Positions 1 through 42,226 of a stretch of DNA of 64,000 nucleotides are shown here, in pieces. The first letter of the stretch is position 1; each line of letters opens with the position of its first letter. The stretch is from Saccopteryx bilineata. Taxonomy: Eukaryota > Chordata > Mammalia > Chiroptera > Emballonuridae. The translations under genes were made by a program, and so were the position numbers. The stretch lies in contig NC_089490.1 of the NCBI RefSeq assembly GCF_036850765.1, positions 125,764,522-125,828,521 on the forward strand, written 5' to 3'. The notes under the pieces were generated by a model that saw only the letters and a program-made list of their open reading frames with translations, was not told the origin of the DNA and searched no databases.

Positions 1-240
1 TCAGTGCTCACTCCAATTCCAGCCTTTTCTGCCATTTGATTTGCAATTCATACTGAAGCTTTTGACCTCAGGCAGCTTCTCGCACAGAACTCCTGGTTTT
101 CTCTTGCGTAAAAAACACGTAGCCCATGGCCCCTAAAAGGACAGCCATGGGGAGCCAGAGCAGCAAAAACTCTTCTACCCCACTTGTCAAGGGTGGCGAC
201 CCCATACCAATCTCTGAATCCTGCCACAAACTATGCCAGT
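1..240 (-). other. Possible internal leader of a minus-strand ERV
   Basis: This stretch lies directly beyond the U5 end of LTR A on the minus strand, where a provirus would carry its primer-binding site and leader. The five bases on either side of LTR A (236-240 and 765-769) do not match, so A is not a simple solo LTR with a TSD. A minus-strand open frame runs from about 208 to 68 and includes a hydrophobic run (residues like LLLWLPMAVLLGAMGYVFF). I do not recognise it and cannot identify a primer-binding site. It could equally be flanking DNA. The window edge cuts it off. Confidence 0.3.
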
Positions 241-764
241 TGTAAGGCCAGGAGCCACCATCATGGCCATTCACATGCAGGTTCCCATTGGATTTGGGCA
301 GACGGTAAAGAAATGGCAGAGTCGGAGGATGGTGGGCCATTCTGTTTATTGGTGTCTCACCAAGACAGGCAAACCACAAGAGAAGACAAGGGAAACGCAG
401 AAAACCAGCTTTTCCCATGAAGGGCAAGGGATCAGGGAGGCCCTGCAATGGTGATAGCAGGAACCAAGTGAGAGCAAGCTCTCAGTCTGCCCCACTTTAT
501 TATATAGAAATCCAAACCTTTAATCTAATATACAAACAAGGAAGTCTCTGATACAAAGTCACTTATCTGAGGCATAATGGGATTCCTCATTAGAGTGCAT
601 CACCCACATCATGCAATCAGTCAAGGGTGTGGGGAAAAGCTTAGTCTTAAAACTAAGCCTTAGGCTATAACCACCCTGCCTATTTACAGCCTGTCCCCCA
701 CACCCAATGCAAACTATAAGTGAGCAAATATATATATCATATTTACAAACTTATTTGACCAACA
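241..764 (-). repeat. LTR A (ERV long terminal repeat, minus strand)
   Basis: Read on the minus strand, it starts TGTTGGTCAAATAAG (from 764) and ends CTGGCCTTACA (241). Both ends are shared with LTRs B, C and D in this window. The U3 portion (about 500-764) aligns well with C and D, while the middle is divergent, making this a different subfamily member. A TATA-like TATATAATAAAG sits near 500-510 and AATAAA lies near 340, followed by the shared U5 start ATGGCCCACCA. At 524 bp it is shorter than its relatives. No matching TSD is present. Confidence 0.75.
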
Positions 765-1627
765 TGGAGGTACCTTAGTTGTTCATTGATTGCTTTCTCA
801 TTATGTGCCTTGACTGTGGCTACAGCATACTGAATGACCCCTTGCTCAAGCCAATGACCTTGAGGTTTTGAACTTGGGTCTTCTGGGTTCCAATCGGATG
901 CTCTATCCATGTTGGGCAGATAAAATGTATTATGCTCACTTTGTTAAAGATAACATGAGGAGGCCATTGCCCAGGTGATATTAATGTGTGTTGGGGATCG
1001 TTGCAGCCTGGGCTTGGTTTTGGGATTAAGCCTTTCCTACCCTTTTTGATGTGGGGCGGTACAATCCAATCATGCCTCAGAGAAGTGACTTTGTATTAGA
1101 GACTTCCCTATTTTGTATATTGGATTAGAGATTGTGAAGCTACTATAAAATGGGGGCAGAAGGGGAGCTGGGGCGCTTGGTTCCTGGGAGATTATCATTA
1201 GAAGAGAGAGCAGAGGAGAGCAGAGAAAGGCCACGTGGAGGAGGCCAGGAGAAGCAGCCAAGATGACGGAATGCTGAGTGAGATGCCAGTTTGTGTAAAG
1301 TTTGTATCTGGGATAAGGAAGGAGATGGGGAATAGAGGTGAATAAGTCTGGTGATCTAGAAACCTTTTGATTCTAGGAAACTCGGATAAGTCAGTAGCTT
1401 TGTGAGCACTGAATGTGACTGGGTTTTGGAGCCCAGTGTGTATTTTTACTTGCCCGCTGGGTGCAAGCTAGAATTAAAGACTATGGCCCACCAGTTTGTG
1501 GCTCCACTGTTTCTTTACCGACTGTTCAAATCCAATGCGAACCTGCATGGGCCAGAAGGCTGCTGTGATAGTGGCCCTAGCCGTGCCTGCTGGCTTTACA
1601 ATCCATTTCACCACCACCTGGTCAGGC
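765..1627 (-). repeat. tRNA-derived bat SINE split by LTR B
   Basis: The pieces 765-909 and 1,606-1,627 join into one minus-strand SINE. The tail side reads gttgttcattgattgc at 778. The tRNA side reads ggatgctctatcca and resumes after the LTR as ttcaccaccacctggtcaggc. The break is exactly the TSD of LTR B (atcca on both sides), so the SINE is older than the LTR. It belongs to the longer SINE type also seen at 17,779-18,123. Confidence 0.75.
910..1600 (+). repeat. LTR B: solo LTR with 5-bp TSD
   Basis: This is a 691-bp element with TG...CA ends (TGTTGGGCAG... to ...TGGCTTTACA), flanked by the identical 5-mer atcca at 905-909 and 1,601-1,605. It carries a TATA box (TATAAAA, 1,144-1,150), an ATTAAA polyadenylation signal (1,473-1,478) and a U5 segment beginning atggcccacca. 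No retroviral internal sequence is attached, so it is a solo LTR left by LTR-LTR recombination. Its R-U5 matches C and D closely, but the first ~150 bp of U3 differ. A 5-bp TSD is used by several ERV groups, so it does not fix the class. Confidence 0.88.
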
Positions 1628-1803
1628 TCCCTCCTCTCTTGACAACAGTTTGTGTCTTGAGCAGTTTTTCCACATGACACCAGTAGTTCCCAGTAGGCTT
1701 GAGGACTACAGACCATCTAGGCAGTGGTGGGACTCAATTTAATAACCAGTTCTCTGCCCTAACAACCATGTTAAGTATAAAAAATGATATGCCAAAAGGT
1801 AGT

Positions 1804-2436
1804 TGTTGGTCAAATAAGTTTGTAAATAAAATATATATGTTTACTCGCTTATAGTTTGCATTGGGTGTGAGGGACAGGCTGTAAGTAGGCAGAGTCATTA
1901 TAGCCTAAGGCTTAGTTTTAAGACTAAGCTTTTTTCCACACCCTTGACTGTTGCATGATAGGGGGTGGTGCACTCTTATGAGGAATCCCATTATGCCTCA
2001 GATAAGTGACTTTGTATCAGGGACTTCCTTGTTTGTATATTGGATTAAAGGTTTTGATTTCTACACAATAAAATGGGGCCGAGGAGCCCATGCTGAAGGG
2101 GAGCAGAGAAAGGCCATGTGGAGGAGAGCCAAAATGGCAGAGTGCTGAAGAAGAAACTTTGTGCAGATTTTGAGCAGAGAGAAGGAGATGTGGAACAGAG
2201 GTGAATAAGGCTGGTGAGATACAAACCTTTGATCCTAGGAAAACTCAGATAAGTCAGTGGCTTTGGGATCCCTAAATGGAAAGGGAAGTGTTTTCCCACT
2301 GTGTGTATTTCTTGCCCACCAGGTGCAAGCTAGGATAAAGATAATGGCCCACCAGTTCTTGGCTCCATTGTTTCATTACCGTCTGTCCTGCGTGGGCCAG
2401 GCGGCTGTGATGGTGGCCGTGGCTACTGGCCATGCA
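1804..2436 (+). repeat. LTR C: solo LTR with 5-bp TSD
   Basis: This 633-bp element begins TGTTGGTCAAATAAG and ends CTGGCCATGCA. It is flanked by gtagt at 1,799-1,803 and 2,437-2,441. It has the same U3-R-U5 layout as LTR D. The TATA box is degraded to AATAAAA (about 2,067), and the U5 starts at atggcccaccagttcttgg. No internal viral DNA is attached. It sits inside the hAT element at 1,722-7,538. Confidence 0.88.
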
Positions 2437-2463
2437 GTAGTTTATTATTTCAAGCATTTAATA

Positions 2464-2515
2464 CTTAAATAAAAACAATAAAAGGTATTCCTATGTTATT
2501 ATTCCTATGTTATAA
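2464..2515. repeat. Short tandem duplication (about 14 bp)
   Basis: The unit tattcctatgttat is present twice in tandem (about 2,487-2,514), immediately before the long direct repeat at 2,506. The second direct-repeat copy (6,001) lacks the extra unit, so this slippage is private to the left side. Confidence 0.6.
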
Positions 2516-2659
2516 GGAAAAGCTTTAAAATATTAATGAAAAAATACTAAATAATAACTGACAAAAACCAATAAAACTATTATTTAAGATATTTCCACGT
2601 CACCCCCTGGTTGTTGGGGCTTTTTCTCTTTACATTATGTAAAGCCAGTAGCCACGGCC
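2506..2659 (+). repeat. 154-bp direct repeat, left copy
   Basis: 2,506-2,659 matches 6,001-6,154 over its whole length with scattered mismatches. Both copies contain hAT-body sequence (ttaatgaaaaaatactaaataat, ggggctttttctcttt) followed by the first bases of an LTR in minus orientation. Here only 22 bp of LTR remain (2,638-2,659, tgtaaagccagtagccac...). The repeat pair flanks the gamma-ERV fragment. Since both copies hold the LTR edge, the duplication is younger than LTR D. Confidence 0.85.
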
Positions 2660-3109
2660 TTGTAGAATGTCCCAACTCAGGAGGGGTACAGGGCATGAGG
2701 GCATAACTAAGAAGGAGTGCGAAAAGGGGATTTTGTCCAAACTGCATGTCAGGAGTGGCGTGTGAAGAGGAAAAAAGGGGTCCCATCAACTCCCATAACC
2801 GAGACTTGTGAGGGAACTAGAGTGTGATGGCAAAACAGAGAAGGAAGCCCCAGTGTCCACAAGAAATGAGACGGACTTACCCGCTACCTGCAGCATTACC
2901 CTGGGTTCGGCGAGGGTGATGGGAGTCTTCGAGTCCAGGCCACGTCAGTCATCCATGAGGCCAAGAAGTTCGAGCAATGGGCCCACCTGGCTGGCTTGGC
3001 TTCCCATTCAGGTGGCTTGTCCTCCACGTGGAGACGCTGAGGAAAAGCCTGTTACTCAAAAGGGGCAATCGCCACCCTTCTTAACTTCCTTGCCGTGAAA
3101 GGGTAGCGT

Positions 3110-3970
3110 GTCTTCTCTACTAAGGCTCAACTTTACTCTCAGTCTGCAGTCTGTCTGGGCATCGCCTTAACACCCACCACCCGAGGTCTCTAGATCAAAC
3201 TCAGACCCTCCACAGTCTCCAGCCACCTACCACTGCTGATCAGATTCTTTCTTTCCTCAGTCTAATAGGCTTCTTTAGGCACTGGATTCCTAATTTTGCT
3301 CTCTTAGCCAAACCCATCTACAAGGCTGCAAAAGAGACTCCCACAGGACCTCTCACATCCCCCAACGCCATCAAAAGGGCTTTCTCTACCCTTTGAGACA
3401 CCCTCATCTCCTCTCCCCCTCTCGCTTTACCTGACCCCAGATGCCCTTTCCACCTTTACACTGATGAAAAACACGGTAATGCAATTGGAGTACTGACTCA
3501 ACCTGTGGGGCCTACATACCACTACGTGGCATATCTCTCTAAACAATTAGACACCACTGACAAAGGTCGGCAACCTTGCCTCCAGGCACTGGGCGTGACA
3601 GCCAAACTCACCAGGAAGGCTACCAAACTCACCCTTTCTCAACCCATCACTGTCTTCTCCTCCCACAGCCTCACTGACCTCCTTTCGCACAAATCTCTTT
3701 CTCTATTAAGTCCTTCCCACCTATAAGAATTTCACCTCCTGTTCATTGAAAACCCTTCAGTCACTCTTTTGCCCTCTCCCAAACTCAACCCAGCCACTCT
3801 ACTGCCAGCTCCAACGACACTTCTGAAACCCACCCACTCTTGTACAGAGCTAATAGATTTCCTCAACAGACCCCGAGATGGATTATCAGATTCTCCTTTC
3901 AAAGATCCAGATCTAATTAATACTCTTTGTAGATGGGAGCTCCGTACAGGGACCCAACAGATGACAATGG
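3110..3970 (+). pseudogene. ERV pol remnant: reverse transcriptase end and connection
   Basis: Short open pieces in several frames resemble the C-terminal part of a gammaretroviral reverse transcriptase and its connection to RNase H. They include a segment around 3,260-3,400 (words such as ALLAKPIYKAAKETP) and one at 3,450-3,700 (FHLYTDE, then HYVAYLSKQLD). Stops and frame changes separate them, for example a TGA near 3,393 and the stop at 3,724-3,726. The polymerase active-site part is absent. Class I assignment follows from the word order and the downstream integrase. This is a dead remnant. Confidence 0.7.
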
Positions 3971-3982
3971 GCAGCCTATGCA

Positions 3983-4342
3983 GTGGTCACTACCTTCTCC
4001 ACCCTGGAAACCCAACAGCTGCCAGAGGACACCACCTCCCAGAAGGCAGAGATAATTGCCCTCACGCTGGCACTCACTCTGGCCCAGGGAAAACATGTAA
4101 TCATATATACTGACTCTAAATATGCTTTTTTTTTTTTTATCACCCACAGCCACTCTACCCTCTGGAAGGAAAGGAGCTTCCTCACTACCAAGGGCTCCCC
4201 CAAAATCAATGCTACCCTCATTTCTAAACTTTTGCAGGCATTACAGCTACCCATTGAGGTGGCTGTGGTACAATATATGGGCCATCAAACCTCTCAGGAC
4301 CCGGTGGCCTTAAGAAATGCTTGGGCCAACGTGGAGGCTTGA
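3983..4342 (+). pseudogene. ERV pol remnant: RNase H
   Basis: One frame of about 119 codons carries RNase H landmarks in order: SQKAE (about 4,037), the YTDSKYAF segment (4,106-4,130) and a C-terminal stretch ending in a stop at 4,340-4,342. A run of 12-13 T (about 4,127-4,138) interrupts the domain just after YTDSKYAF and replaces expected residues with a phenylalanine tract. The same frame continues past the stop into the integrase N-terminus. In a live virus this domain would degrade RNA in RNA:DNA hybrids. Here it is clearly inactive. Confidence 0.75.
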
Positions 4343-4375
4343 AACCTTACCACGGGGACCTCCCCAACTCCTCTC

Positions 4376-5616
4376 ATGTTTTGCTCCACCTCCTTGAAAC
4401 CTTCTTACACTCCTGAGGAAGAGCAGGCCCTCCTCAGAAAAGGTGGGGACGTATGCAACCAGGGATGGATATTTCTCAGAGATAAAATTGCCTTACCAAA
4501 AGGACAGGCTGAAATTCTCCTTTCTGATATCCACTGTTCCTTACACATAGGGCCCAAAGCTCTCTATCGGTTCTTACATCCAGGCCTCCAGCAGACTATC
4601 GAAAAGGTACACGCAGCATGTGCTGTCTGTTCCAAAGCCTCCACACAAGGGGGACTCCGCCCCCACTTCCCTACTCATCAGCTGAGGGGCATGTGCCAGG
4701 CCAGGATTGGCAAATCGACTTCACTCACGTGACCCCTCACAAAAAACTCCCTTATTTCCTAACTTTTGTTGATACCTTTTCAGGGTGGATAGAAGCCTTT
4801 CCCACCTCTCATGAGATGGTAGACACCGTTGCCTCCATTCTCGCTGAAAACATCATCCTGTAGTTTGGACTGCCGACTACCATCCAGTCAGACAACGGCC
4901 CGGCCTTCACTGCCCAAATAGTCCAGCAGGATGCCACCTCTCTCAACATCACCTGGAAGCTCCACATACCCTATCACCCTCAATCGTTGGGTAAGGTGGA
5001 AAGGGCCCATGGCATCCTGGAGGGTCAGCTAACCAAACTTTCCATGAAGACCAGACTCTCCTGGCCAAACCTCTTGCCCCTGGCACTCACCAGAATCAGG
5101 GCAACCCCGCGAAACCCCACTGGACTCAGCCCCTTTGAGCTGGTTTATGGTAGACCATTCCTAATCAATCACAGCTTACTTGTCAACCCCCCTCCTCTTG
5201 CCACATACCTCCTCTTTCTGTCTTTACTTCACCATCTTCTTAGGGAACACACAGATCAGACTCTCCCTCCCATAAAGGGTCCAAGTGAAGTTTATCCAGT
5301 GGTCCCCCTCCAGCCAGGAGACATGGTTCTTCTGAGGGAGCTCCAGCCCGGCTCCCTACAGCCCAGGTGGACGGGACCCCATACGGTAATATTGATTACT
5401 CCTACCACAGCCAAGCTTTTAGGGCAAACACCTTGGTACCATGTTTTCCGCCTCAAGCTTGCCCCCATGCAGGACCAATGGCAGTCAGAACCACTGGGCC
5501 CCACCTGTCTTCAGCTTACTATAAAGTTGGACCCTGCACATCCTCCTGTTACTCCTGTCCCTCCCACAGGGAATTTCCCACCATCTTCCAACCTCCCTTC
5601 CCCACAATGCCTCTAA
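4376..5616 (+). pseudogene. ERV pol remnant: integrase
   Basis: The N-terminal zinc-binding HH-CC module is visible in one frame (IHCSLHIG, then CAVC near 4,624). A frame shift around 4,680-4,700 leads to the catalytic core. The catalytic triad is present and in one frame: D (4,717-4,719, in WQIDFT), D (4,891-4,893, in SDNGPAF) and E (4,999-5,001, in GKVERAHG). The last two are separated by 35 residues, the classical spacing. A C-terminal domain follows, with WTGPH and a W...H...RLK ending typical of gammaretroviruses. An amber codon at 4,861-4,863 interrupts the otherwise open frame from 4,618 to 5,616. No env follows. Confidence 0.85.
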
Positions 5617-5699
5617 CCAGCAGGAAGTAGCCAGATGAATAGCGGTGCCCCTATCTAACACAAAAGATTGGAATGTGAGATCGGTTGGCAATGGGGGAA

Positions 5700-5970
5700 G
5701 GTCACATGAGGAACCACCCATGCCCATGACCACCAAAAGAAACAGCCCAGGAGCATTTTGAAACTGTCAGCCAATGAAATTTCGCCATGACCTATCACAC
5801 CACACCACTCCACCAACGCTATAAATTACCCCACCCCCACCCCCTGGGCAAGAGAAGCTGCGTGACTTCCCTGGCCCCTGTCTTGTGGACTAGTGAACCT
5901 CACCCAGGAGCACTCTAAATAAAGCTTTTGCTTGTCCACACTTGGTGGCTACGTCTTTCTTTCTTCCTCA
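5700..5970 (+). promoter_or_regulatory. 3' LTR-like region of the gamma-ERV
   Basis: A purine-rich run (about 5,689-5,700, aatgggggaagg) is followed by a possible TG start near 5,707. Promoter-like signals come in the expected order: CCAAT (5,771-5,775), TATAAAT (5,820-5,826), then AATAAA (5,918-5,923), followed by a T-rich U5-like end at about 5,970. This resembles a short gammaretroviral LTR. No matching 5' copy exists in the window, so the boundaries are estimates. Confidence 0.6.
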
Positions 5971-6000
5971 GTAGAAAATACCTTATACACAAAACTAGAC

Positions 6001-6154
6001 TATGTTATAAGAAAGAGTTATAAAATATTAATGAAAAAATACTAAATAATACCTGAAAAAAACAATAAAACTATTATTTAAGATATTTCCTTGTCACCCC
6101 CTGGTTGTTTGGGGCTTTTTCTCTTTGTGTTAAGTAAAGCCAGTAGCCACAGCC
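6001..6154 (+). repeat. 154-bp direct repeat, right copy
   Basis: Partner of 2,506-2,659. This copy runs on without a break into the complete LTR D, so it is probably the original and the left one the truncated duplicate. Mismatches between the copies include a changed base pair at a CpG, so the duplication is not recent. Confidence 0.85.
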
Positions 6155-6834
6155 ACCATCACAGCTGTCTGGCCCATGCAGGTTCGCACTTGATTCGAAC
6201 AAGTGGTAATGAAACAATGGAGCCAAGAACTGGTGGGCCATTACATTTAATCCTAGCTTGCACCCAGCGAGCAAGAAATACACACAGTGGGAAAACACTT
6301 CCCTTTCCATTCAGGGATCCCAAAGCCACTGACTTATCCGAGTTTTCCTAGGATCAAAGGTTTATACCTCATCAGCCTTATTCACCTCTGTTCCCCATCT
6401 CCTTCTCTCTGCACAAACTGAGGAAACTGACTTCTCCTTCAGCAGTCTGCCATTTGGCTGCCTCTCTTCTGCAATGCTAGTTTTAGGAACCGAGAGAGAG
6501 AGAGCCCCTGGTCTATTTCATTTTATAATGTAGAAATTTAAACCTTTAATCCAATATACAAATAAGGAAGTCTCTGATACAAAGTCACTTATCTGAGGCA
6601 CAAATGGGATTCCTCATAAAAGTGCACCACCCCCTATCATGCAGCAGTCAAGGGTGTGGGGAAAAGCTTAGTGTTGAGAAGATCTTAGTATTAAAAGGGC
6701 GGGGAAAGGCTTAGTTTTAAAATGAAGCCTTAGGCTATTAGGATACTGCCTGATTACAGCCTGTCCCCCACACCCGGTGCAAACTATAAGCAAGCAAACA
6801 TATACATCATATTTGCAAACTTATTTGACCTACA
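6133..6834 (-). repeat. LTR D: solo LTR with decayed 5-bp TSD
   Basis: On the minus strand it starts TGTAGGTCAAATAAG (from 6,834) and ends at the shared CTGGCTTTAC edge (6,133), about 702 bp. The flanks are tgtta (6,128-6,132) and cgtta (6,835-6,839), equal except for one CpG-type change. A TATA-like element lies near 6,520 and the U5 segment near 6,190-6,245. No internal viral DNA is attached. It is inserted in the hAT element at 1,722-7,538. Confidence 0.83.
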
Positions 6835-6842
6835 CGTTATAT

Positions 6843-7173
6843 CAGGGGTCCCCAAACTATGGCCCGCGGGCCGCATGTGGCCCCCTGAGGCCATTTATCC
6901 GGCCCCCACCGCACTTCCAGAAGAAGCACCTCTTTCATTGGTGGTCAGTGAGAGGAGCATAGTTCCCATTGAAATACTGGTCAGTTTGTTGATTTAAATT
7001 TACTTGTTCTTTATTTTAAATATTGTATTTGTTCCTGTTTTGTTTTTTTACTTTAAAATAAGATATGTGCAGTGTGCATAAGAATTTGTTCATAGTTTTT
7101 TTTATAGTCTGGCCCTCCAATGGTCTGAGGGACAGTGAACTGGCCCCCTGTGTAAAAAGTTTGGGGACCCCTG
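6843..7173. mobile_element. Non-autonomous hAT element (331 bp)
   Basis: The termini are CAGGGGTCCCCAAAC and GTTTGGGGACCCCTG, a perfect 15-bp inverted repeat. The flanks are cgttatat (6,835-6,842) and cattatat (7,174-7,181), an 8-bp TSD with one CpG-decay mismatch. Internal text such as tggcccgcgggccgcatgtggcc and ggccctcc is typical of mammalian hAT miniature elements. No coding capacity. It landed directly on the outer TSD of LTR D. Confidence 0.9.
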
Positions 7174-7718
7174 CATTATATGTTTCTTTACTGAAGTAAC
7201 AAACATGAGGGAATTAAAATGTAGTATTTCATCAAAGGTATAATGAGTTTTTTAAATAAATAAATAAATATTATAAACATAGTTCTGTCAAACTTTTTCA
7301 CCTATGGATAGAATGAACATTACCACTGGTGCTTAGAATATGCTATTGTGCAGATGAACATTTAAAAAAGGGTAAGAAATGTAAATTTGTGATTTCCACA
7401 TTGAGCAGCTACCCAGGCACCCACCTTAGAGAGAGCCTTGATTACAAGTGTCATTTTAACAACCAGATTGCCAAACTCAACAAAAAATTAAGTATCAGTT
7501 CTGTTGAACCAGTGCAAACCAGCCAAATCCCACCAATGCATCTAGGTTTGTGTAAGTGCATTCTCTGATGTTCACACAATGAAGAAATTGCCTAATACTG
7601 CATTTCTCAGATCAAAACCCTGTTACTAAGTGGCATATGACCATAATAATAAAATGATAGAATTGAAAAATATATACGGTAGTCCATGCATTATTTTTTA
7701 ATACCAGAGAAAGTACTA

Positions 7719-8394: not shown

Positions 8395-8828
8395 AAATAA
8401 ATTTTTATTTTAATGGGGTGACATCAATAAATCAGGGTACATATATTCAAAGAAAACATTTCCAGGTTATCTTATCATTTAGTTCTGTTGCATACCCATC
8501 ACCCAAAAAGAGATTGTCCTCCGTCACCCTCTATCCAGTTCTCTCTGTACCCCTCCCCCTCTCCCTCACCCTCCTTCCCTCCCTCCACACCCCATAACCA
8601 CCACACTACTGTCCATGTCTCCTAGTCTCGTCCTTATGTCCCACCAATGTATGGAATCCTGCAGTTCTTGTTTTTTTCTGATTCACTTATCTCACTCCAC
8701 ATAATGCTATCAAGATTCCACCATTCTGCTGTAAGTTATCCGATGTCATCATTTCTTCTAGCTGAATAGTATACCATGGTGTATATGTGGCCCATCTTCT
8801 TTATCCAGTCTTCTATTTTTTTTTACAG
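8395..8828 (-). mobile_element. 5'-truncated L1, 3' end only
   Basis: Begins with a T-rich tail followed by ggggtgacatcaataaatcagg, the complement of the L1 3' end seen at 26,660-26,700. Next comes the C-rich (G-rich on the sense strand) 3' UTR tract (8,550-8,590), then the last part of ORF2 (complement of the IRNDD... end). Only about 430 bp remain. Confidence 0.85.
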
Positions 8829-26317: not shown

Positions 26318-26715
26318 ATTTAATATACACTATGGAATACTACTCAACCATAAGAAATGATGACATCAGATCATTTACAGCAAAATGGTGGGATCTTGAT
26401 AACATTATACGAAGTGAAATAAGTAAATCAGAAAAAACCAGGAACTGCATTATTCCATACGTAGGTGGGACTTAAAAGTGAAACTAAGAGACATTGATAA
26501 GAGTGTGGTGGTTACGGGGGGAGGGGGGAGAGGGAGAGGGAAAGGGGGAGGGGGAGGGGCACAAAGAAAACTAGATAGAAGGTGACAGAGGACAATCTGA
26601 CTTTGGGTGATGGGTATGCAACATAAGTGTACAACAAGATAACCTGGAGTTGTTATCTTTGAATATATGTATCCTGATTTATTGATGTCACCCCATTAAA
26701 AATAAAATTATTAAA
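26318..26715 (+). mobile_element. 5'-truncated L1, 3' end
   Basis: Starts in the last codons of ORF2 (tatggaatactactcaacc; EYYSTIRNDDI...), followed by the G-rich 3' UTR tract (26,515-26,560) and the end cctgatttattgatgtcacccc plus an A-rich tail. It is the best 3'-end reference for this L1 family in the window. Confidence 0.9.
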
Positions 26716-35162: not shown

Positions 35163-35567
35163 TGTATTTTTTTTTTTTCTGTATTTTTCTGAAGCCGGAA
35201 ATGGGGAGAGACAGTCAGACAGACTCCCGCACGCGCCCAACCAGGATCCACCCGGCATGCCCACCAGGGGGGCGATGCTCTGCCCACCAGGGGGTGATGC
35301 TCTGCCCCTCTGGGGCGTCGCTCTGTTGCGACCAGAGCCACTCTAGTGCCTGGGGCAGAGGCGGAGGAGCCATCCTCAGCGCCCGGGCCATCTTTGCTCC
35401 AATGGAGCCTCGGCTGTGGGAGGGGAAAAGAGAGACAGACAGGAAGGAGAGGGGGAGGGGTGGAGAAGCAGATGGGCGCTTCTCCTGTGTGCCCTGGCCG
35501 GGAATCGAACCTGGGACTTCTGCACGCCAGGCCGACGCTCTACCACTGAGCCAACCGGCCAGGGCTG
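35057..35567 (-). mobile_element. Rhin-type tRNA-SINE with expanded tail
   Basis: Minus-strand SINE (35,163-35,567) ending in the tRNA head cactgagccaaccggccaggg. TSD tgtaagtagtt at 35,046-35,056 and 35,568-35,578. It contains a partial internal duplication of the ccaccaggggg(c/t)gatgctctgccc unit (35,263-35,307). Well-preserved A and B boxes suggest a young copy. Confidence 0.93.
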
Positions 35568-41860: not shown

Positions 41861-42226
41861 GGCCTTGGCCGGTTGGCTCAGTGGTAGAGTGTCGGCCTGG
41901 CGTGCAGAAGTCCTGGGTTCGATTCCCGGCCAGGGCACACAGGAGAAGCGCCCATCTGCTTCTCCACCCCTCCCCCTCTCCTTCCTCTCTGTCTCTCTCT
42001 TCCCCTCCCACAGCGAGGCTCTATTGGAGCAAAGATGGCCCGGGCACTGGGGATGGCTCCTTGGCCTCTGCCCCAGGCACTAGAGTGGCTCTGGTCGCAA
42101 CAGAGCAACGCCCTGGAGGGGCAGAGCATCGCCCCCTGGTGGGTGTGCCGGGTGGATTCCGGTGGGGCGCATGCGGGAGTCTGTCTGACTGTCTCTCCCC
42201 GTTTCCAGCTTCAGGGAAAAAAAAAA
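41861..42226 (+). mobile_element. Rhin-type tRNA-SINE, young
   Basis: Head ggccttggccggttggctcag, B-box gggttcgattccc, full body and a pure A tail. The 19-bp TSD (aaaaagaatagcccagcaa) is at 41,840-41,858 and 42,227-42,245. It is inserted in the leader of the old L1. Confidence 0.96.

Follow-up and report, generated by a model that had tools for sequence, protein, structure and literature searches.

A single hAT insertion in Saccopteryx bilineata enlarged by nested elements and a rearranged provirus remnant

Introduction

Mammalian non-autonomous hAT elements form a class resembling miniature inverted-repeat transposable elements (MITEs), with 8-bp target-site duplications (TSDs), short terminal inverted repeats (TIRs) of the CAGNGG type, which is a hAT motif class, a length of about 650 bp and high copy number. 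Solo long terminal repeats (LTRs) of endogenous retroviruses (ERVs) have TG...CA ends and 5-bp TSDs, and stand without a second LTR or internal part. Both kinds are represented at the locus described here, which lies in a 64,000-nt window of the Saccopteryx bilineata genome (NC_089490.1:125,764,522-125,828,521; coordinates below are window positions) and is built on a single insertion of a hAT element, hAT1. hAT1 is like the mammalian class in all the features listed, with no difference seen in the element itself, and two LTRs nested within it, LTR C and LTR D, are like the solo form, with no second LTR or internal part within hAT1.

The third component of the locus, the remnant of a gamma-type ERV, is best compared with rearranged proviruses and templated insertions. 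HERV-K124 is reported to be a rearranged provirus with a part inverted, explained by LTR inversion and template switching (PMC3625200). The ERV of the window is also inverted in part, but in HERV-K124 it is the LTRs that are inverted, whereas here it is an internal segment encoding nucleocapsid (NC) and protease, and the flanking transposon is duplicated. Templated insertions by microhomology-mediated break-induced replication (MMBIR) are described in cancer cells (PMC8421209); they have short-homology junctions and copied-in pieces in common with the window locus, where the event is old, took place in the germline and lies within a provirus. Known kinds of structure include nested transposons, solo LTRs, rearranged proviruses and templated insertions, and the locus is a well-resolved new example. 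A literature search turned up no title on this locus, from which we make no claim on its absence from print.

In the history that we favour, with a probability of roughly 0.7, insertion of hAT1 was followed by nested insertions and by integration of a provirus, the 5′ side of the provirus would have been rebuilt by template-switch repair, and a second hAT element, hAT2, would have arrived last.

One hAT insertion and its target site

A first-pass annotation, made from the sequence of the window, had proposed that identical 8-mers border a pair of inverted termini 5.8 kb apart, and that the whole block is one hAT insertion that grew by nested insertions. Both proposals hold. The 8-mers, CATCTAGG, lie at 1714–1721 and 7539–7546. 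Directly inside them are the opposed termini, CAGTGGTGGGA starting at 1722 and CATTGGTGGGA (reverse complement) ending at 7538, which are alike in 10 of 11 bases; the paired 8-bp TSD and the short CAGNGG-type TIRs are both features of hAT membership. When up to two mismatches are allowed, the window contains ten forward and ten reverse TIR-like sites, and within 10 kb the hAT1 pair is the sole one with identical flanking 8-mers. No pair of such kind was obtained in 30 first-order Markov simulations.

The copies compared come from the same 2.61-Gb genome. In each genome search 40 matches were scored from a larger candidate pool, given below in brackets, and the 39 others are those elsewhere than the query locus. 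For the right arm (7183–7546; 5368 candidates) these reach up to 87% identity, and end at 7538–7539 in 20 of 39 cases and at 7532–7546 in the remainder. In all but one of 29 fetched relatives, the left arm, some or all of the middle and the right arm are collinear on a single strand (the left arm was not found in L015), so that both outer termini come from one family; a check for termini of different families, suggested in the first-pass annotation, thus gave no refutation. Alignment of 22 copies of 595–690 bp each resulted in a consensus of 650 columns, onto which the pieces in the window, aligned separately and all on the plus strand, map as a left arm with the TIR CAGTGGTGGGA (1722–1803, consensus 1–86), a left copy of the middle (2442–2637, consensus 87–290), and a right arm (7182–7538, consensus 293–650). 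A right copy of the middle, also on the plus strand, is located at 5988–6132. In the family, 7 or 8 of the 8 TSD bases match in 16 of 28 relatives, a count flattered by a register freedom of ±4. Judged by these comparisons, hAT1 is one high-copy hAT element of ~650 bp, swollen to 5.8 kb by later nested insertions, and its length indicates that it is apparently non-autonomous. Two of the aligned copies, L006 and L031, have a common middle sequence unlike the others, and represent a subfamily. A second genome match to CATCTAGGCAGTGGTGG (L002) does not continue as hAT1 and was dismissed as chance.

The right flank is part of an older host repeat (7547–7650, plus strand) that received hAT1 and may be MER2/Tigger-like. 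Beginning at the TSD, this flank has 39 other matches (632 candidates), 34 of which start within its first three bases; none is above 90% identity, that value applying over 69 bp. Six of seven fetched paralogues have a single CATCTAGG-like word joined straight to the right flank (two exact, four with one mismatch), and the seventh is diverged. As seen in these paralogous copies, from the right flank, the target word CATCTAGG is intrinsic to the older repeat. Exact-pattern scans of viral and prokaryote contigs for the uninterrupted target gave no hit. The TIRs are short enough to raise the question of whether the outer termini could come from two different hAT copies that pair by chance. This we regard as exceedingly improbable, since the bordering 8-mers are identical and had no equal in the simulations, the relatives are collinear, with the pieces together tiling a single 650-bp element of the family, and the paralogous target reads through.

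Solo LTRs and a second hAT element nested in hAT1

LTR C (1804–2436, plus strand) is a solo LTR placed between two copies of GTAGT (1799–1803 and 2437–2441). As for LTR D, a solo LTR on the minus strand (6133–6834), the left TSD is TGTTA (6128–6132) and the right TSD CGTTA (6835–6839), the latter being the first five bases of CGTTATAT (6835–6842), which is the left TSD of hAT2. hAT2 (6843–7173, plus strand) is 331 bp long, has the TIR CAGGGGTCCCCAAACT, and is followed by its right TSD CATTATAT (7174–7181). Matches to LTR C elsewhere start at 1804 in 38 of 39 cases and end at 2429–2436 in 36 of 39 (8562 candidates). Many of the 39 other LTR D matches (10591 candidates) span 6134–6834, none reaches left of 6126, and none extends more than 8 bp into hAT1. 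The 39 hAT2 relatives (1463 candidates) are full-length and 97–98% identical, with 36 of them spanning 6843–7173. An exact 5-bp TSD could be recognised by eye in at least 9 of 20 fetched relatives of the C/D LTRs (a clear TSD was not seen in L074, L083 and L086), and a perfect 8-bp TSD in all three hAT2 relatives inspected. LTR C and LTR D belong to one LTR superfamily, and are inserted in opposite orientation with 5-bp TSDs. Private divergence, which for multi-copy families is an upper bound, amounts to 4.8% for LTR C (30/623), 7.2% for LTR D (50/693), and 2.8% for hAT2 (9/324).

At the LTR D/hAT2 site the hAT1 family consensus reads ACGTTATATG once, which means that LTR D and hAT2 used one target word; the differing TSD copies at this site look like the outcome of CpG decay. 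The proposal that LTR C, LTR D and hAT2 each have a TSD of their own therefore applies insofar as each is flanked by a duplication, but not to the target word, which LTR D and hAT2 share.

Just upstream of hAT1 are two further LTRs related to C and D, LTR A (240–765, minus strand) and LTR B (1030–1601, plus strand), and LTR C is 91% identical to LTR A over 280 bp. A parallel nest is present in L041 (2195–3237), where a hAT2 copy (2302–2631) with a perfect 8-bp TSD, CCTTAGGC, is located within a C/D-family LTR and beside an ERV relative. The nest in the window is accordingly not unique in kind.

Content of the ERV and its 3′ junction

The ERV had been singled out as the exception among the components of the block, and its flanks are indeed a 155-bp direct repeat with no TSD. 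It begins with an NC-protease segment of ~412 bp on the minus strand (2660–3071, the right edge being uncertain by 1–3 bp), inverted with respect to the remaining pol sequence. This is followed on the plus strand by a stop-broken pol region from the C-terminus of reverse transcriptase (RT) through RNase H and integrase, continuing into a 3′ pre-LTR stretch (3072–5673), and by the 3′ LTR (5674–5987), which ends ...AAAATACCTTA then TA. In searches of separate pieces, the retroviral protease domain RVP was located on the minus strand (2786–2944), and RNase_H, rve and MLVIN_C on the plus strand. The integrase open reading frame resembles mammalian gag-pol entries at identities of up to 74%, and the assignment as gamma-type is based on these protein hits together with the murine leukaemia virus (MLV)-type integrase domain in Pfam. 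A tblastn search with the integrase found no relative among viral contigs, env was not found in the remnant, and the locus lacks the 5′ LTR, gag and ~750 bp of RT. In place of two LTRs and a short TSD there is only a 3′ LTR, with a rearranged junction on the left, for which reason the ERV is classed as a damaged provirus remnant.

The start of the 3′ LTR is marked by four genome hits that begin at 5672–5674, and relatives place its end at 5985–5987. Among 17 relatives, the LTR ends ...CCTTACA in 14 and ...CCTTATA in two, and the CCTTACA end is succeeded in those relatives by TTTGGTGCC-like sequence or by other DNA. In the window, ...AAAATACCTTATA is followed by CACAAAACTAG, which is hAT1 sequence (GGTACACAAAACTAG in hAT1). 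The junction is at the LTR end, and the 3′ LTR meets hAT1 cleanly (~5987), as expected of an integrated provirus. The private divergence of the ERV is 6.7% (49/727) and 5.3% (21/394) in the two stretches compared.

Two other arrangements were observed among the 29 fetched ERV relatives. In eight of these (L034, L041, L046, L049, L051, L054, L055 and L056), NC-protease is joined to a match at ~4169–4227 and then to 5438 onward, an internal-deletion form that suggests a deleted proviral lineage that spread. In five (L038, L043, L048, L053 and L061), NC-protease is followed after ~90–110 bp by a match to 3429–3448 onward.

Inversion junctions and the direct repeat

With the region 2640–3160 as query (2639 candidates), the 39 other matches start at 2660–2661 in 33 cases, at 2652 in five and at 2675 in one, and all stop at 3063–3073, with none going further. 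These limits define the inverted piece as ~2660–3071, and its junctions as private among the scored matches. RT resumes at 3070–3072, in the same sense and 698–753 bp past the NC-protease piece, in 11 of 29 fetched ERV relatives, from which it follows that RT sequence of that length is missing from the ERV in the window; in L040 and L045, pol resumes at 3048. The window showed no further copy of the inverted piece. Relative to L050, the junction homology is nil at 2659/2660 and at most 3 bp near 3070–3072, which is within the zero to few base pairs of microhomology characteristic of MMBIR and of fork stalling and template switching (FoSTeS), while zero homology fits plain end joining equally well.

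The copies of the direct repeat (2505–2659 and 6000–6154, both plus strand) each consist of hAT1 middle sequence and a 22-bp tip of LTR D (2638–2659 and 6133–6154, respectively). They differ by 13 substitutions and two 1-bp indels, and are thus 8.4% apart (13/154), or ~4.2% each. With 13 such sites distinguishing the copies, an assembly fault is unlikely. The putative template for the hAT1/LTR D tract in the left copy is ~3.5 kb away. Both copies have the hAT1 changes T189C and C270G, each present in 0 of 22 relatives, and a 9-bp deletion that is matched in full by none of the 22 (two are without its first five bases). The two are therefore of common ancestry, copied from this same hAT1. A tally of changes confined to one copy gave 14 for the left and 2 for the right, but a 1-bp gap displaces its final columns and no weight is placed on the difference. 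At the point of proviral integration, the left copy of the middle has a scar that contains a 14-bp tandem repeat (2486–2513) and is found in 0 of 22 aligned relatives; at the scar site, L006 and L031 carry other sequence and L016 a deletion.

A duplicated tract with common private changes would also be expected from segmental duplication, in which the left and right sides derive from two paralogous hAT1-LTR D loci. A surviving paralogue of the age of the repeat should be ~92% alike, whereas scored matches elsewhere reach at most 87% with the right arm and 90%, over 69 bp, with the right flank, and a join of hAT1 to LTR D was not encountered in any of them, which makes this origin very improbable. 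Somewhat less remote is an unequal exchange between a provirus allele and an empty allele, by which the hAT1-LTR D tip of the empty allele would be joined to the provirus interior. The left copy does span the integration point, and both copies do come from this hAT1, but an empty allele should read GGTACACAAAACTAG where the left copy has its scar, and the inverted piece requires an additional event; we consider such an exchange unlikely. Comparable doubt attaches to a pre-rearranged ERV fragment captured as filler at a staggered break in hAT1-LTR D, where fill-in of overhangs of ~155 bases would generate a long target duplication. The block is flanked by a direct repeat of target sequence, as this predicts, but its right end is no more than 2 bp away from the LTR terminus, the site of an integrase-made junction, the scar of the left copy is at the same hAT1 point, and the inversion junction is absent from all 39 other scored matches. 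An inversion of the L1 5′ type was tried and rejected, as the LTR match reaches the very end, past the mRNA stop, no poly(A) was observed, and the repeat is 155 bp long.

Proposed history

In the history that includes template-switch repair, hAT1 (~650 bp) inserted by cut-and-paste into CATCTAGG of the older repeat, duplicating this word, and the solo LTRs C and D landed in the element later. A gammaretrovirus-like provirus would have integrated near position 133 of the hAT1 consensus. With LTR D in place, the 5′ side of the provirus may then have broken, to be repaired by template switching at short homologies: the left hAT1 end would have been extended by 155 bp of hAT1 and LTR D tip copied from beyond the provirus, after which copying would have switched to the ~412 bp of NC-protease on the opposite strand and re-entered RT. 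Such a repair would remove the 5′ LTR, gag and ~750 bp of RT, and leave an apparent giant direct repeat. The junctions with 0–3 bp of homology and the scar at the integration point fit an MMBIR-like template-switching repair, and we infer that one such event accounts for all three junctions. On whether a single replication-based repair both erased the 5′ half of the provirus and wrote the transposon, LTR-tip and inverted viral copies, our estimate is evenly balanced.

The hope of ordering five events at this site has been realised in part, the order being only partly decidable. The nesting places hAT1 first and the rearrangement after both LTR D and the ERV. The young hAT2, inserted beside LTR D in the same target word, is probably last, favoured by its much lower divergence, and LTR C is probably late, both placements being statistical. 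TSDs were rejected as a guide to the order of LTR D and hAT2, as either order yields the same words. Also rejected was the notion that LTR D necessarily preceded the integration of the ERV, as only the rearrangement must postdate LTR D.

A number of observations speak against the proposed history. In BLAST hits the similarity of the left flank to the older repeat stops only ~2 bp past the TSD, which leaves the paralogous empty site based on the right flank. The hAT1 pieces diverge unequally from the consensus, by 9.9% in the left arm, 13.5% in the left middle (scar included) and 7.6% in the right arm; the piece 5973–6132 contains LTR bases, and its 89.4% is therefore not a clean hAT1 figure. 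The LTR of the window has TA where 14 of 17 relatives have CA, and a 2-bp loss is indistinguishable from mutation. The left TSD of the ERV is gone, so that integration is seen on one side only. With looser scoring, the relative L053 aligns to 3080, beyond the inversion junction, and the junction homology was judged on one relative (L050), with one of the two ERV junctions having none. Templated repair leaves no unique mark, and several events or end joining could yield the same structure; nor do the divergences firmly settle in what sequence LTR C, the ERV and the rearrangement came.

Nearly every boundary in the 5.8 kb is accounted for using copies from the same genome, which indicates the reach of a nested-site reading. 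The TSD-less ERV is plausibly an integrated provirus that suffered a later local copying accident, and the direct repeat would serve as an internal clock that dates this accident after one LTR insertion. If this is true, the false "giant target-site duplication" would mislead both repeat annotation and the dating of the ERV, and other TSD-less ERVs may hide similar unrecognised scars.

Other features of the window

Outside the hAT1 nest, an inverted pair of ~100 bp with 87% identity is formed by 8400–8500 and 26609–26709. Hits to a tRNA model, scoring 36–37 bits, were obtained at 35490–35560 (minus strand) and 41867–41937 (plus strand), and are possibly the heads of tRNA-derived short interspersed elements (SINEs).

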